From contig JADZDJ010000065.1 in NCBI GenBank assembly GCA_020851115.1, positions 1 through 64,000 of the forward strand: a stretch of DNA of 64,000 nucleotides, in the 5' to 3' direction. Every line of letters begins with the position of its first letter. Position 1 is the first letter of the stretch. The notes beneath the pieces were generated by a model. That model was not told where the DNA came from. It made no database searches and saw nothing but the letters and a program-made list of their open reading frames with translations. The position numbers and the translations under genes were made by a program. Below, piece after piece: positions 2,730-63,887 of this stretch. Source of the DNA: Pirellulales bacterium (GTDB taxonomy: Bacteria > Planctomycetota > Planctomycetia > Pirellulales > JADZDJ01).

Positions 2730-3845
2730 TTGCTGCCCTACGGCGAGAGCCCTATCATTTTCGCTAGCTCATTCCCATCCATCCTTCAATTTGGAACTGC
2801 TTTGCAAAACATCTTGATTCGCCTGCCGACGTTGCTGGCAACCGTGGCTGGCCCTGCGCCGGCCGAGGCCGTCGGCGGCATCCGTCCGGAACTGTGGCAT
2901 TGGCTTGCGTTTGGTGCCTTTGTGCTAGTGATGCTGGTCCTCGATTTGGCGGTTTTCCATCGCCAATCGCACGAGCCGACGCTCCGAGAAAGCGCCTTTT
3001 GGACCACCTTTTGGTGCTGTCTTGCCTTGAGCTTCAATGGCCTCATTTGGTATCGGGCCGGAAGCAAGCCGGCCATCGAGTTTCTGAACGGCTACCTCGT
3101 CGAATGGTCGTTGTCGATGGACAACGTTTTCGTGTTTGCGGTGATTTTCGGCTACTTCCGCGTGCCGCTTAAATATCAATATCGAGTGCTGTTCTGGGGC
3201 ATCTTGGGCGCCATCGTCATGCGGCTGGCGTTCATTCTGTTGGGCACCGCGCTTATCAAGCGGTTTGAGGTGGTGCTGCTCTTCTTTGGGGTGCTGCTGA
3301 TCTATAGTGGCATTAAGCTCATGACCAAGAAGGATGAAGTTCATCCCGAGCGAAACTGGCTGATGCGGTGGGGCAAGCGCGTGTTCAATGTTGCCAGCGG
3401 CAATCACGGCAAGAAATTTTTCGTCCGCGAAAACGGCAAACGCTGCGTGACGCCGTTGTTTCTTGTGCTGCTGGTCATCGAAAGCACCGATGTGCTGTTT
3501 GCGGTCGATAGTGTGCCGGCGATTTTTGGGTTGACGAAAGATCCGTTCATTGTCTTTACCTCCAACATTTTCGCCATCCTTGGCCTGCGGGCGCTCTATT
3601 TCCTGCTGGCCGGCGTCATGGATTTGTTCCGCTATTTGAGCTACGGTTTGGCGGCGGTGTTGATATTTGTCGGCTTGAAAATGATCGCCGAGTATATCAT
3701 GCCGGTCGCGGGCATCGAGTTTCATTTTTTCAAAGATTATCCCTGGGCCTCGCTAGTCGTGATCGTGTCGCTGTTGGGAATCTCCATCGCGGCGTCGCTG
3801 ATGGCGCAGCGGAGAGAAACGCGAGCCGCGGACGATTCAGCCTAG
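2730..3845 (+). CDS. TerC/Alx-family integral membrane protein
   Basis: About 370 residues with several hydrophobic helices. Family signatures are present: an acidic residue in the first helix (LVLDLAVFHR), the SLSMDNVFVF motif near residue 130 and the ESTDVLFAVDSVPA motif near residue 253. TerC/Alx proteins are implicated in metal ion handling (Mn2+ export or tellurite resistance) at the cytoplasmic membrane. The start is uncertain: the open frame begins with TTG at 2730, other TTG codons lie at 2802 and 2814, and the first in-frame ATG falls inside the first membrane helix. No RBS decides the start. I looked for a yybP-ykoY-type leader upstream and saw none. Confidence 0.88.
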   Translation: MLPYGESPIIFASSFPSILQFGTALQNILIRLPTLLATVAGPAPAEAVGGIRPELWHWLAFGAFVLVMLVLDLAVFHRQSHEPTLRESAFWTTFWCCLALSFNGLIWYRAGSKPAIEFLNGYLVEWSLSMDNVFVFAVIFGYFRVPLKYQYRVLFWGILGAIVMRLAFILLGTALIKRFEVVLLFFGVLLIYSGIKLMTKKDEVHPERNWLMRWGKRVFNVASGNHGKKFFVRENGKRCVTPLFLVLLVIESTDVLFAVDSVPAIFGLTKDPFIVFTSNIFAILGLRALYFLLAGVMDLFRYLSYGLAAVLIFVGLKMIAEYIMPVAGIEFHFFKDYPWASLVVIVSLLGISIAASLMAQRRETRAADDSA

Positions 3846-4718: not shown

Positions 4719-6659
4719 ATGTATCAATTTGCGCGTGCGCGCTTGCGGAATCAGGGGTTGGTTGCTTCGGCAATTCTTGTTTGGCTCGCGTTGCCGCAGA
4801 CAAGTCGGGCCGCCAGCTTTCAGTTTATGAAAATTGTCGATTCGAATACGCAAGTGCCCAGTGAGTCGCTGGGAGTAACCTACAAGCTGTTTGGCCGACC
4901 GGCGATCAACCAAAGCAATGTTGCCTATCGGGCGGGATATCAAGATTTGAACAATGTCTGGCAGCAACGGATCGATCGAGCCACGTCTCCCAATGCCATC
5001 GTGCTCATCCAAAAGGCAAGTACCTCTGGGCCAACGACGGGGATGTTAAGCGACCCAACGATTTATGGCACTTCGGTCGCCTATAGCGGCTTGGTGACGT
5101 CGTCGCAAGGAACTGCCGCGCTGTATACGTTTAATAACGGCATCGCTACCAACGGGCTTAACTACGAGGAAGCGCCCAGCATTTACGACGGCAAGGTGGT
5201 TTACCCGCGTCGTTCGGTTACGTCCGGCAGCGGGCCGAACAACATTCACATCGCCGTCACCGGCGGCGGCAGTTCGACGGCAACCGTTTTGGTCGACCAC
5301 ACCACGCTCGTCCCAGGCGGTGGCGGTCAAACCTTTGCACAGTTCGACGCCTATCTCGATTCCACGGTGAATAGCACAAATACCAATGGATCGGTAGCGT
5401 TCATGGGCGTGTGGTCGAGTGGACCGTCGTCGCACGGCATCTATCGTTGGGACCAACAAACCAATTCCATTACCGTGATCGCCGACAAAAACACGCCGAT
5501 TCCCAATCAGGCGGGAAACTTCAACACGTCGACTTTGCACTTCATCACGCCGATCGACTCATTCAATTCGACGGTCGGAAATTCCTTCAATTTCCCGCAA
5601 TCGTTTTACAGCGATTCGATGTTCGCCGTGTCGTCCCGGCCTTCGCTCTACGGAAAAACGGTGTCGTTCAACTACGACGAGGGAGCCAAGACCGGCGTTT
5701 ACACGCGCACGACAGGCCCGTTGAACGTCGTGGCCGACGTCAATACTCCGCATCCGATCTATGCGGGCAATTTCAAAGATTTTTTTGAGTCGTCGACTGT
5801 TGGCGGATCGACCGCATTCACGGCCACCGACGCTTCCGGGTTTGAGCATGGGCTGTTTTTGGCCCACTGTGGACAAATTTCAAAGGTGGTGACGGCCGGC
5901 GATATTCTCGACGGCAAGCACGTCCTCACCGCTGACCTCGGACCGCGCGGCCTGTCGGTCAAACCAGGAACCAACGTGTTCACCCGTGGATTGGAACTTG
6001 CCTTTCAGGTGATGTTTACCGACGGTAGCCAGGGCATTTATGTTGCCACGACACCTCAGATTTGCCTGTCGATCGATGTAACGCTCGGCGCTGGCATAGG
6101 CGCTGGCAGTACGCAGATTGGAACGGTGCTGGGGTCAACATCGTGCGACGCGCCGGTATTCGACGATCTAACGACCGGGCTGATGGTCCATATGACTGCG
6201 GGAGCAGGAGTCGAACCAGCCGTGTTTGGCGGGAGTTCAGACGCCAGCGTGTTGGGAGTGGATAGCTTGCCGGGTAACAATCCTCAGGAGATCGACTTTA
6301 CAACACAGGCTGACGGAATGATTTCAGAGTCGATCGCGATGTCGTTCAATCAAGCGATGCTGATCGATGGATTGCACTTGGGCGACTTTGGCCCCGACGA
6401 TTCGGCGATTTTGCAAATCGGCGGCGTCGTGATGCACCTCGACGGATTGGCATATCCCCATGGCGAGATTCCCTTGCCTGGCTTACCGCTAGACGCATTG
6501 CAGATGTTGACCATCGGCTGGGATCCTGCCAACAGCACCGGCAATGGATTCAGCCTGGGTGGGATTCTGGCTACGCCCGTGCCTGAGCCTGCCAGCATGT
6601 TAACAGGCACCGTGATGTTTGCGCTGGCTCTCGTCATTGGGCGACGGCGTTTGGCCTGA
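4719..6659 (+). CDS. Secreted PEP-CTERM sorting-domain protein
   Basis: 646 residues. A signal peptide (about 1-31, ending TSRA) leads into a repetitive beta-rich body: repeated blocks such as AYSGLVTSSQGTAALYTFNNG and SFNYDEGAKTGVYTRTTGPL suggest beta-propeller-like blades. Near residue 618 comes VPEPAS, then a hydrophobic helix and the basic end GRRRLA, the classical PEP-CTERM tail recognised by an exosortase. It is expected at the cell surface or in the exopolysaccharide matrix. ATG 4719 is preferred over the TTG at 4698 because a GGAG lies upstream and the signal peptide fits. No exosortase gene is in the window. Function of the body is unknown. Confidence 0.85.
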   Translation: MYQFARARLRNQGLVASAILVWLALPQTSRAASFQFMKIVDSNTQVPSESLGVTYKLFGRPAINQSNVAYRAGYQDLNNVWQQRIDRATSPNAIVLIQKASTSGPTTGMLSDPTIYGTSVAYSGLVTSSQGTAALYTFNNGIATNGLNYEEAPSIYDGKVVYPRRSVTSGSGPNNIHIAVTGGGSSTATVLVDHTTLVPGGGGQTFAQFDAYLDSTVNSTNTNGSVAFMGVWSSGPSSHGIYRWDQQTNSITVIADKNTPIPNQAGNFNTSTLHFITPIDSFNSTVGNSFNFPQSFYSDSMFAVSSRPSLYGKTVSFNYDEGAKTGVYTRTTGPLNVVADVNTPHPIYAGNFKDFFESSTVGGSTAFTATDASGFEHGLFLAHCGQISKVVTAGDILDGKHVLTADLGPRGLSVKPGTNVFTRGLELAFQVMFTDGSQGIYVATTPQICLSIDVTLGAGIGAGSTQIGTVLGSTSCDAPVFDDLTTGLMVHMTAGAGVEPAVFGGSSDASVLGVDSLPGNNPQEIDFTTQADGMISESIAMSFNQAMLIDGLHLGDFGPDDSAILQIGGVVMHLDGLAYPHGEIPLPGLPLDALQMLTIGWDPANSTGNGFSLGGILATPVPEPASMLTGTVMFALALVIGRRRLA

Positions 6660-59941: not shown

Positions 59942-61276
59942 CTACTCGTGCCGTAGGGCTTCGATCGGATCCATCGCGGCCGCCCGCATCGCCGGATAAA
60001 GGCCGAACACGACGCCGACGGCCATCGAGATGCCAAACGCCAGCGGGATCGACCAAGGCACGACAACCGGGGCCACGTCTCGAACGACTTCCGGCAGGTT
60101 CTGCATCGCCTGCGGGAACGCCGATTCCAACAGACTGCGGCCCCAATTGACCAGCGGGCGGCAGGTGAATCCGCCCAGAATCCCCGTCAAACCGCCGACG
60201 ATCGACAGCAACACGGTTTCCACGAGGAACTGCCTTGTAATGTCGCGGCGCTTGGCGCCGAGCGCTCTGCGAATGCCGATTTCACGCGTCCGCTCGGTCA
60301 CCGTGGCCAGCATGATGTTCATAATGCCGATTCCGCCAACGACCAGCGAAATCGCCGCGATGATTCCCATGAACACGATGAACATCAGCCGCGTCGTCTT
60401 GGCTTGTTCGAGCAGTTCCAACGGCACAACGACGGCGTAATCGTCGTCTTTGTGCTTGAGCCGCAGCGTATTTTCGACCGCTTTAGCGGTTTCGAGCACG
60501 TTCTCGACATTGTTGATTCGCAACGTAACCTGGCTGAGTTGCACGATTTCACCTTCCATCGAGCCTGCGCGGCGTGTTACGACGGTGTCGCCGATGCGCT
60601 TCCACAGCGTCGTGATCGGAATGTAGACGTCGTTGTCGAAATCCTGCGCCGCCAGCGAGCCGCCGATTCCGGCCGAAGCGGTTCGTTTTTTCATGACGCC
60701 GACAACGCGGTAATAGTCCTCGTCGACGTGAATCGACTTGCCAATCGGATCTTCGAAGCGGAATAATCGCTCGGCGGTTCCGGCGGCCAGCACGCAGACG
60801 TTCGCTTCATTGAGCATTTCGGCTTGCGTGATAAAATGTCCGCGATCGACGTGAAGCTGCGTCACGTCGGCGTATTCCGGCGTACAGCCGACGAGCCGGC
60901 CATCGACTTTGCCGTGGGTTTTGCCTTCCCGTCCATAGCGGAATTGCCGGCGAATCTCGCGAATGCGAATGGCCCGCGTGACGGTCGGCAAATCGCTCAG
61001 CAATTCGTAGTCGTCGCGCGTCAGGCCATACGGCACCGGCCCGCTCGAGCCAGACGTTGTTTCCGGCGGCGGCTTGAGCGACCGCACGATGATGTTATCG
61101 GCTCCCAGGCCTTCAATCTGCTCGCGCGCCTTGATGCTGATTCCCTCGCCGATCGCCAACAGCCACACGACGCTCGCCACGCCGATAAAAATGCCCAGCA
61201 CCGTCAGCAACGATCGCAGCGGATGCAATGCCAGGCTCTTGACGCCGACTTTGAGGGCTTTGAACAGTCGGAACAT
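59942..61276 (-). CDS. ABC transporter permease, MacB/FtsX type
   Basis: 444 residues. N-terminal membrane helix (about 20-45, LTVLGIFIGVASVVWLLAIGEG), a large MacB-type periplasmic core domain (about 46-290) and a C-terminal FtsX domain with three helices (LMFIVFMGIIAAISLVVGGIGIMNIM... and the last ending MRAAAMDPIEALRHE). This is the mechanotransmission-type permease of MacB. It starts 3 bp after the ATPase gene; together with the HlyD gene it forms a MacAB-like exporter. Substrate unknown. Confidence 0.92.
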   Translation of the reverse strand: MFRLFKALKVGVKSLALHPLRSLLTVLGIFIGVASVVWLLAIGEGISIKAREQIEGLGADNIIVRSLKPPPETTSGSSGPVPYGLTRDDYELLSDLPTVTRAIRIREIRRQFRYGREGKTHGKVDGRLVGCTPEYADVTQLHVDRGHFITQAEMLNEANVCVLAAGTAERLFRFEDPIGKSIHVDEDYYRVVGVMKKRTASAGIGGSLAAQDFDNDVYIPITTLWKRIGDTVVTRRAGSMEGEIVQLSQVTLRINNVENVLETAKAVENTLRLKHKDDDYAVVVPLELLEQAKTTRLMFIVFMGIIAAISLVVGGIGIMNIMLATVTERTREIGIRRALGAKRRDITRQFLVETVLLSIVGGLTGILGGFTCRPLVNWGRSLLESAFPQAMQNLPEVVRDVAPVVVPWSIPLAFGISMAVGVVFGLYPAMRAAAMDPIEALRHE

Positions 61277-61279
61277 TGC

Positions 61280-61984
61280 TTAGCTCTCGTTTTCCAACGA
61301 TCGATGCCGTTCGTCGGATTGAATCAGGCCGTCGCGCAGCCGTACGATCCGTCGGGCGTGCTCGGCGACGTCGTTTTCGTGAGTCACCATGATGATTGTC
61401 TTGCCGGCGCGGTTCAGGCGATTGAGCAGCGTCAGAATCTCTTCCGACGTCTTGGAGTCGAGGTTGCCCGTTGGCTCGTCGGCCAAGACAAAGTAGGGAT
61501 CGTTCACCAAACTGCGGGCAATCGCCACACGCTGCTGTTGACCACCGGATAATTGAGTGGGCCGATGCTGCAATCGGTCTCCGAGGCCGACCATCCCCGC
61601 CAATTCCTGCACCCACGCAAAATCATCAGCCAGAATGCCGCGGCCGTACTCCAACGGCACTTGAATGTTTTCCAGCACGGTATATTGCTGGATTAAATTA
61701 TATGCTTGAAAAATAAATCCGATCCGCGTGGCACGAATTTCTGAAAGCTGGTCGTCGTCCATTTGAGCCACATCGTCGCCGCCGAGAAAATATCTGCCGG
61801 AGGTTGGCCGATCGAGGCAGCCGAGCAGATTCAGGAAAGTCGATTTCCCCGATCCCGATGGACCCATGATCGCGACGTAATCCCCTTCGGGCACTTCCAG
61901 CGTAATGCCGCGCACGGCATGAACGACTTCACCGCCGAGCGCATACTCTTTGGTGATATTCTCAACGCGCGCAGCCCATTTCAC
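61280..61984 (-). CDS. ABC transporter ATP-binding protein, MacB/LolD type
   Basis: 234 residues. Walker A GPSGSGKST (about 41-49), Q-loop FQAYNLI, signature LSGGQQQR, Walker B YFVLADEP followed by TGNLDSKTSEEI, and the H-loop VTHEND are all intact. The sequence belongs to the LolD/MacB/FtsE class that pairs with FtsX-type permeases such as the next gene (3-bp gap). It energises the exporter from the cytoplasmic face. Confidence 0.95.
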   Translation of the reverse strand: MKWAARVENITKEYALGGEVVHAVRGITLEVPEGDYVAIMGPSGSGKSTFLNLLGCLDRPTSGRYFLGGDDVAQMDDDQLSEIRATRIGFIFQAYNLIQQYTVLENIQVPLEYGRGILADDFAWVQELAGMVGLGDRLQHRPTQLSGGQQQRVAIARSLVNDPYFVLADEPTGNLDSKTSEEILTLLNRLNRAGKTIIMVTHENDVAEHARRIVRLRDGLIQSDERHRSLENES

Positions 61985-62004: not shown

Positions 62005-63693
62005 CTAACCCGCAGAGTTGGTGGCGGTTGGCGCACCGCTTGCAGAACGTGGGCGTCCCCGTTGAGCAGGTTTCTCCGTGGTAGGGGGAGCGTCCGCCGG
62101 AGCTGCGGCAGGTCTCTCCGCTTGCTCCATCCCGTTTTTTTCTCGCTCGATCGGCAATGCAGCGGTCGGCCGCGCGACACCGGAGGGCGTTTTTTCCGGC
62201 GGCCGAGAAGGACTGCTGCGGCCTACCAACCGCTCGTACCGAGGGTGCGATTCCCAGTAGCCAAGGGGCGCTTTCGGAAGCTCGGCCTTAGCGATCATTG
62301 GCTCGGGATCGAGCACCACTTCCTCCCCTTCTTCCACTCCTGCGCGGATCAGCACCTCTTGGTCGTTGGTGGGGCCGATGTCGATCCATTTAGGCTCGAA
62401 GCTACTCCCCTTTCGGACAACGCAATAATATTCGCCGTCGCGCTCGACGACTGCCTGGATCGGTGCCTTGAGCGAATTCGGGATGCTATCCACGTTGATT
62501 TCGACCTGAACCGTCAACCCCGGCCGAATGCCGGCCGGCGGATTATCCAGTGCAATGTACGTGGCATATTGCTTGATGTTTTGCGAAAACCAGCTCGGCG
62601 GCGCTGGATATTCATCGACGCGGACCACTTCTCCGTCGAGCTTCATACCGGGAAAGGCATCGACCGACGCTTTCGCCTTCATCCCTTTGCGAACGTGGCT
62701 GACGCGTGTCTCATTGACCTTCGCCACGGCTTGCATCTTGTTCAAATCCGGTAGGCGTATCACTGGTTGTCGCTCGCGGATTACCGCGCCTTCCTCAATA
62801 ATCACTTCCGAACCGCCGCGACGGTCGGTTCGGTTGGCATACACCACCTTGCCCGCCGCCGGCGAATGGACGACGCATTTCTTGATCTGTTCGTCGAGAT
62901 GATCGAGCTTGTCTTGAGCTAATTTCAGCGTGAATTCGTCCGATGCCAGCTTGCCCTTGGCCGTTTCAATGCCGGCGTCTAGCGTTTTCAGCATCTTGGC
63001 TCTGGTGTATTCGCGCAGTACTTTCAATTTTGTGTTCACCGCGGCTACGTCGTTCTTGCCTTTTTCGACGGCGAATCGATCGGCCTCCACCTGATCGGAG
63101 GTAACGTAGCCCTTCGCGGCCAGCCGTTCGCTGTATCGTGCGTATTCTTCGGCACGTCGCAGGTTTTCTTCCGCGACAAACAACTCGCCGAGCAGCAATT
63201 GCTCTTCTTGAGTGAACGTGCCTTCGACATACTCTTTTTTGGAAATTTCGGCTGTCTCCAACGCGGTTTTCGACTGAATGACCAATGCCGTGGCGTCGTT
63301 GACAGTAATTTGCTGCTGGTTTCGTTCTTGCTCCAATGCGGACGAGTCAAATCGCACCAAAAAATCGCCCACATTCACTTCCGCGCCATTGGGAACGACT
63401 TCCAAAATCACCGTGCCCGACGAATTGCGCGCTTCGACTTCGCAGCGCACTTCCACATTGTTCGAGCTTTCCAACTCTCCCGGCTCGATCACATTATGCT
63501 CGAACGTGCCTCGCTCGATCTTTTGAACGACGACGCGGCTCGCATCGTCCGGTTCGCTGCCGCGCATCATTGGCTTCACGAGCAGGATGACCGCAGCCAC
63601 AACTGCCGCCACCACCGCCAGAGGCACGATTAGCCGACCTGCGCGAATCTTGGGCAGGTAGCGAGTCGCAGAGGCAGATCCGGCAATGCTCAT
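62005..63693 (-). CDS. Periplasmic adaptor (HlyD/MacA-like membrane fusion protein)
   Basis: 562 residues. Membrane anchor about 24-43 (LIVPLAVVAAVVAAVILLV). Membrane-fusion layout: beta-barrel and lipoyl parts (GTFEHNVIEPGELESSNNVEVRCEVEA, NVGDFLVRFDSSALEQERNQ), a coiled-coil hairpin (about 115-265), lipoyl return (SPAAGKVVYANRTDRRGGSEVIIEEGAVIRERQPVIRL) and a C-terminal domain. A Pro/Ala-rich tail of about 90 residues is unusual for the family. It should link the MacB-like permease to an outer component. The start codon lies 52 bp from the CRISPR-like repeats, and the best promoter for the operon (63859-63887) lies beyond them. Confidence 0.9.
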   Translation of the reverse strand: MSIAGSASATRYLPKIRAGRLIVPLAVVAAVVAAVILLVKPMMRGSEPDDASRVVVQKIERGTFEHNVIEPGELESSNNVEVRCEVEARNSSGTVILEVVPNGAEVNVGDFLVRFDSSALEQERNQQQITVNDATALVIQSKTALETAEISKKEYVEGTFTQEEQLLLGELFVAEENLRRAEEYARYSERLAAKGYVTSDQVEADRFAVEKGKNDVAAVNTKLKVLREYTRAKMLKTLDAGIETAKGKLASDEFTLKLAQDKLDHLDEQIKKCVVHSPAAGKVVYANRTDRRGGSEVIIEEGAVIRERQPVIRLPDLNKMQAVAKVNETRVSHVRKGMKAKASVDAFPGMKLDGEVVRVDEYPAPPSWFSQNIKQYATYIALDNPPAGIRPGLTVQVEINVDSIPNSLKAPIQAVVERDGEYYCVVRKGSSFEPKWIDIGPTNDQEVLIRAGVEEGEEVVLDPEPMIAKAELPKAPLGYWESHPRYERLVGRSSPSRPPEKTPSGVARPTAALPIEREKNGMEQAERPAAAPADAPPTTEKPAQRGRPRSASGAPTATNSAG

Positions 63694-63745: not shown

Positions 63746-63855
63746 GGTGAGCACGACAGGGAGGAACTGGAGCTTTCAAACCGCTTCTTCACGATATTTA
63801 ACAATCGGCGGTTGTGGCGGTGAGCACGACAGGGAGGAACTGGAGCTTTCAAACC
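63746..63855 (-). CRISPR. Minimal CRISPR-like array: two identical 37-bp repeats, one 36-bp spacer
   Basis: The 37-bp repeat occurs at 63746-63782 and 63819-63855 without mismatch; flanking bases differ on both sides, so the repeat ends are sharp. On the plus strand it starts GGTGAGCACGACAGG and ends GGAGCTTTCAAACC. The spacer (63783-63818) is unrelated to the repeat. Repeat and spacer lengths are typical of CRISPR arrays. No third repeat is found at the expected spacing on either side. The minus strand is favoured as the transcribed strand because a good promoter directly abuts the right repeat; the repeat then begins GGTTTGAAAGCTCC. No cas gene is in the window, so the type cannot be assigned. 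Confidence 0.7.
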
Positions 63856-63858
63856 TAT

Positions 63859-63887
63859 ATTGTAGCCGCTGCGTAAGAGACTGTCAC
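63859..63887 (-). promoter_or_regulatory. Promoter abutting the CRISPR-like array, reading into it
   Basis: On the minus strand GTGACA (63882-63887), 17-bp spacer, TACAAT (63859-63864). The expected start (about 63852) falls in the first bases of the right repeat. The transcript would carry repeat-spacer-repeat and, unless terminated, continue into the HlyD gene at 63693 as a leader of about 160 nt. Confidence 0.55.

Follow-up and report, generated by a model that had tools for sequence, protein, structure and literature searches.

Nivala, Shipman and Church (2018, Nat Microbiol 3:310) reportedly obtained new CRISPR loci through off-target Cas1-Cas2 integration in E. coli, using the type I-E system with overexpressed Cas1-Cas2. 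Off-target integration outside of arrays under Cas1-Cas2 overexpression in E. coli is also mentioned in a passage of PMC11788318 that cites Nivala et al. 2018, and a passage of PMC9456107, also citing Nivala et al. 2018, describes such integration as more efficient near IHF-like motifs. Frequent off-target integration has likewise been described for the Cas1 of type V-C systems (PMC13034035). Viral and proviral mini-CRISPR arrays consist of one spacer and two repeats that are mostly similar to the host's own CRISPR repeats, and orphan CRISPR arrays such as the type I-F remnants of E. coli carry repeats known from complete systems in relatives (both reviewed in PMC8616872).

The element described here lies on a contig of a Pirellulales bacterium, within a stretch of 64,000 nucleotides that was analysed as a whole (hereafter the window), and is composed of two perfect copies of the 37-nt repeat GGTGAGCACGACAGGGAGGAACTGGAGCTTTCAAACC around a single unique stretch (Table 1). 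Like the loci made by off-target integration in the 2018 work, it has one spacer between two perfect and private target copies, a repeat of the resident length (to within one base, see below) and a position outside of arrays, but unlike those E. coli type I-E loci formed under overexpression it would be natural, of type I-G origin and deduced from sequence alone. With viral and proviral mini-arrays it shares the single spacer, the two repeats, promoter-like sequence upstream and the lack of cas genes, though its repeat matches neither resident repeat and its surroundings are chromosomal, not viral. It also resembles orphan arrays as an array-like unit with no cas genes nearby, whereas its repeat, unlike that of the E. 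coli type I-F remnants, is not known from complete systems in relatives.

Table 1. Features of the element and of the adjoining exporter operon (window positions).
Feature	Coordinates	Strand	Length	Remark
Permease of exporter operon, MacB/FtsX-type	59942..61276	-		
ABC transporter ATPase of exporter operon	61280..61984	-		
HlyD/MacA-like membrane fusion protein	62005..63693	-	562 aa	first gene downstream
Repeat copy nearer the exporter gene	63746..63782	-	37 bp	half of the proposed target-site duplication
Unique stretch ('spacer')	63783..63818	-	36 bp	
Repeat copy nearer the promoter match	63819..63855	-	37 bp	identical to the other copy
Sigma-70-like promoter match, GTGACA-17-TACAAT	63859..63887	-		consensus match only

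Much of what the earlier note had described from the letters of this locus stands. The two perfect 37-bp repeats and the 36-bp unique spacer agree in coordinates and identity, and none of 100 shuffled windows contained a matching repeat pair. On the minus strand, the near-consensus promoter match scores 10/12 (shuffles give 0.2 +/- 0.5) and ends 3 bp before the element, so that the predicted transcription start would fall on the first bases of the promoter-side repeat. The next genes in that direction are indeed those of a MacAB-like exporter (HlyD/MacA-like protein, ABC ATPase and MacB/FtsX permease), the first of which starts at 63693, i.e., 52 bp beyond the repeat, and no terminator-like hairpin was found between element and gene; a transcript from the predicted promoter would traverse the element into the exporter gene. 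To the right of the element, the contig encodes an ACT-domain protein, a zinc metallopeptidase and metabolic genes, and no cas genes were found near the element. The CRISPR-like architecture and its place between promoter match and exporter operon are thus upheld, while the two interpretations attached to them, the remnant of a larger array and a crRNA-like regulator, found no support, as set out below.

By size, the element has the layout of a CRISPR array, in which two or more near-identical direct repeats of ca. 23 to 50 nt alternate with unique spacers of similar size: it measures 37/36/37 nt, with a start-to-start distance of 73 between the copies, and holds the minimum number of repeats that an array can have. 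Among exact direct repeats within 400 bp across 817 kb (the window and 60 further stretches of the same genome), it is the sole pair longer than 20 bp, with the next longest exact match at 20 bp, and the pairs above 30 bp on other examined contigs were all found on contigs carrying CRISPR arrays. The entire 5.2-Mb assembly holds no third copy of the 37 bp with up to three mismatches, which rules out a dispersed repeat with many copies as the earlier note had considered, and no decayed copy was detected in the flanks, where the best other position matches at 19/37. A coding tandem repeat is ruled out by the period of 73, which is not a multiple of 3, and by the lack of Pfam matches in the ORFs spanning the element, and a known RNA by the lack of an Rfam match.

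The genome encodes two Cas1 and two Cas2 proteins in two CRISPR-Cas loci, so the earlier suggestion to look for cas genes bore fruit, though both loci lie on contigs other than the element's and have unrelated repeats. The type I-G locus (contig C269) comprises Cas8g, Csb1/Cas7g, Csb2/Cas5-6g, Cas2 and a Cas4-Cas1 fusion, followed by an array in which eight repeats of 36 nt alternate with spacers of 36 or 37 nt, for a period of 72-73; its Cas2 and Cas4-Cas1 genes look intact, and its repeat bears the evident palindrome CCGCGGCCAATCGGCCGCGG. The type II locus (contig C274) encodes Cas9, Cas1 and Cas2 and has a 36-nt repeat with a period of 66; we take it as II-C because no further cas gene is seen beside it. 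The element's period of 73 is that of the type I-G array and not that of type II, and this geometry suggests off-target integration, which had not been considered in the earlier note.

Our best reading, held tentatively as close to an even call, is therefore that the resident type I-G Cas4/1-Cas2 integrated a spacer off target and that the 'repeats' are the target-site duplication of ordinary promoter-proximal DNA. Cas1-Cas2 integration duplicates the target over the length of a repeat and inserts one spacer. Here, a single 36-37-bp prespacer would have been placed by the I-G Cas4/1-Cas2 complex in ordinary intergenic DNA a short way past the exporter promoter. As in normal adaptation, two staggered attacks on the strands and the filling of the resulting gaps would have duplicated the target, leaving two perfect 'repeats' of 36-37 bp around one 'spacer'. 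We infer both the event itself and the I-G enzyme as its agent from the structure and dimensions of the element, from a genome with just two integrase modules and from a repeat that was found nowhere else. In favor of integration, we also count the identity of the copies, the lack of any third or decayed copy, the absence of such a pair from the rest of the 817 kb and a private repeat without a hairpin in a genome whose resident repeats recur in relatives.

Several observations count against off-target integration. With a repeat of 37 and a spacer of 36, the element is one base off the resident repeat length of 36, an excess that a base shared by chance at one edge would explain. Neither the flanks nor the repeat resemble the I-G leader or repeat beyond shuffled sequences; likeness of the target to a leader-repeat junction is, in turn, not strictly required for off-target integration. 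An empty site was seen in no relative, as the element's neighborhood matches nothing in the 57 nearest genomes and the two genomes of the same family gave just weak matches to the MacA-like protein. The spacer could be traced to no donor in the collections searched, and the precedent for such events is based mainly on overexpressed enzymes. Our confidence in off-target integration stays limited because we have just one locus, in a fragmented assembly, and neither an empty site nor a spacer source.

The alternative that survives best, though we consider it unlikely, is an orphan or relic array, that is, the final repeat-spacer-repeat unit left from a third CRISPR-Cas system, which has been lost or lies in unsequenced parts; resident Cas proteins might possibly serve the unit in trans. 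The lengths of repeat and spacer are typical of CRISPR, the promoter match adjoins the first repeat, and an assembly of 304 contigs could be missing a cas locus. However, the genome has no more than two genes each for Cas1 and Cas2, which go with different repeats of their own, neither RAMP-family proteins nor a PF10040 Cas6 were found, and the element has neither a decayed third repeat nor a stable hairpin (fold against shuffles, z of 0.24 and 0.43). Alignments of the 37-bp repeat to the resident type I-G and type II repeats were no better than those of shuffles. Among 397 genomes of the order, a 25-nt part of the repeat (up to three mismatches) was found in the source genome only and in 0 of the 396 others, whereas 25-nt parts of the I-G and type II repeats, run through the same search as positive controls, each matched five other genomes, some of which carry long arrays. 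In a sample of the phylum, a 22-nt part matched 17 other genomes once each with three mismatches, which is near chance level given that the reversed control pattern matched a handful. Neither GTDB nor IMG/VR gave an exact match to a 22-mer in a search that may omit very near relatives, and across order, phylum sample, GTDB and IMG/VR the repeat is shared with no cas-associated array of the source genome or any other.

Two sets of partial matches to the repeat were set aside. A phage record (MT837194.1; 31 nt at 90%, E 0.03) matches by chance, with a single copy inside an apparent AraC-type regulator gene, and arrays or pairs in GTDB and IMG/VR that start with GTTTGAAAGC(T) are unlike the 37-bp repeat past the searched core (at most 20/36). 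CRISPR repeats can diverge, and an absence of matches is no proof, but the 37-bp repeat behaves like a private sequence rather than one belonging to a repeat family. The remnant of a larger array proposed in the earlier note finds no support for the same reasons: no decayed extra copies, and a repeat found in no other genome while resident repeats turn up in relatives.

A plain local duplication, in which slippage during replication or a repair event placed a second copy of the 37-bp stretch 36 bp from the first with no involvement of a CRISPR enzyme, would need no special enzyme and would account for both the private repeat and the missing spacer source. We nevertheless regard it as improbable: no other such pair exists in 817 kb of this genome, and a duplication that is not in tandem would have to reproduce, by coincidence, the sizes of repeat and spacer alike in the resident I-G system. 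Paired regulatory sites, i.e., an operator or leader element that is present twice and controls the exporter operon, would suit the position between promoter match and first gene and a spacing of 73 bp or about seven helical turns, but a regulatory role of the two copies, possible and without support among our results, is very improbable given that 37 bp of perfect identity is long for an operator, that no repeat pair occurs at the loci of nine MacA-like homologs elsewhere (only 40-48% identical) and that the element has no fold above shuffles and no Rfam family.

If off-target integration did form the element, it is probably inert as a guide. Processing into crRNA would be unlikely because the repeat has no counterpart to the palindrome in the I-G repeat, an argument that draws on what is known of Cas6-type processing. 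The crRNA-like regulator of the earlier note finds no support either, with a repeat that has no hairpin and is unlike both resident repeats, and with a spacer that matches the source genome at no second place. The likely effect of the element would rather be an exporter mRNA leader that is longer by 73 nt. A more far-reaching claim, which we consider doubtful but conceivable, is that a type I-G integrase made a naturally kept 'neo-CRISPR' in a promoter-proximal leader and that CRISPR adaptation can thereby both mutate the regulatory DNA of the host and seed a new array. If true, the element would be a naturally occurring insertion by CRISPR machinery outside its own array, a proposed yet little-documented route to new arrays and altered promoters. 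For one-spacer 'arrays' reported by software, we suggest comparing the sizes of repeat and spacer with the resident integrases and checking whether relatives also carry the repeat, as is the case for real CRISPR repeats.

Regarding the origin of the spacer, which the earlier note had proposed to seek among phages, plasmids and the host genome, no donor was found in the own genome, phages, plasmids or IMG/VR, and a codon-degenerate version of the spacer found no match either. Matches of the spacer end to plasmid merE (88% over 33 nt, E 0.09) are due to chance, and an 18-nt match on an IMG/VR contig does not extend (23/36). Many true CRISPR spacers also lack any match, which makes this negative result weak evidence.

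Some minor observations concern the resident systems. In the type I-G locus, no evident cas3 was seen among the ORFs of C269 (1-7427, this contig only). Upstream of cas9, C274 carries a partial copy of the type II repeat (5634-5667, two mismatches in 25 nt), a possible tracrRNA anti-repeat region. A lone type II repeat unit (2998-3033, one mismatch in the 25 nt searched) sits in the middle of the 6.7-kb contig C180 with no second copy nearby. On contig C137 (11464-11630), we found a second short type II array of two full repeats and a degenerate terminal repeat with a period of 65-66, which may represent the other end of the C274 array, an array that is cut off where its contig ends.
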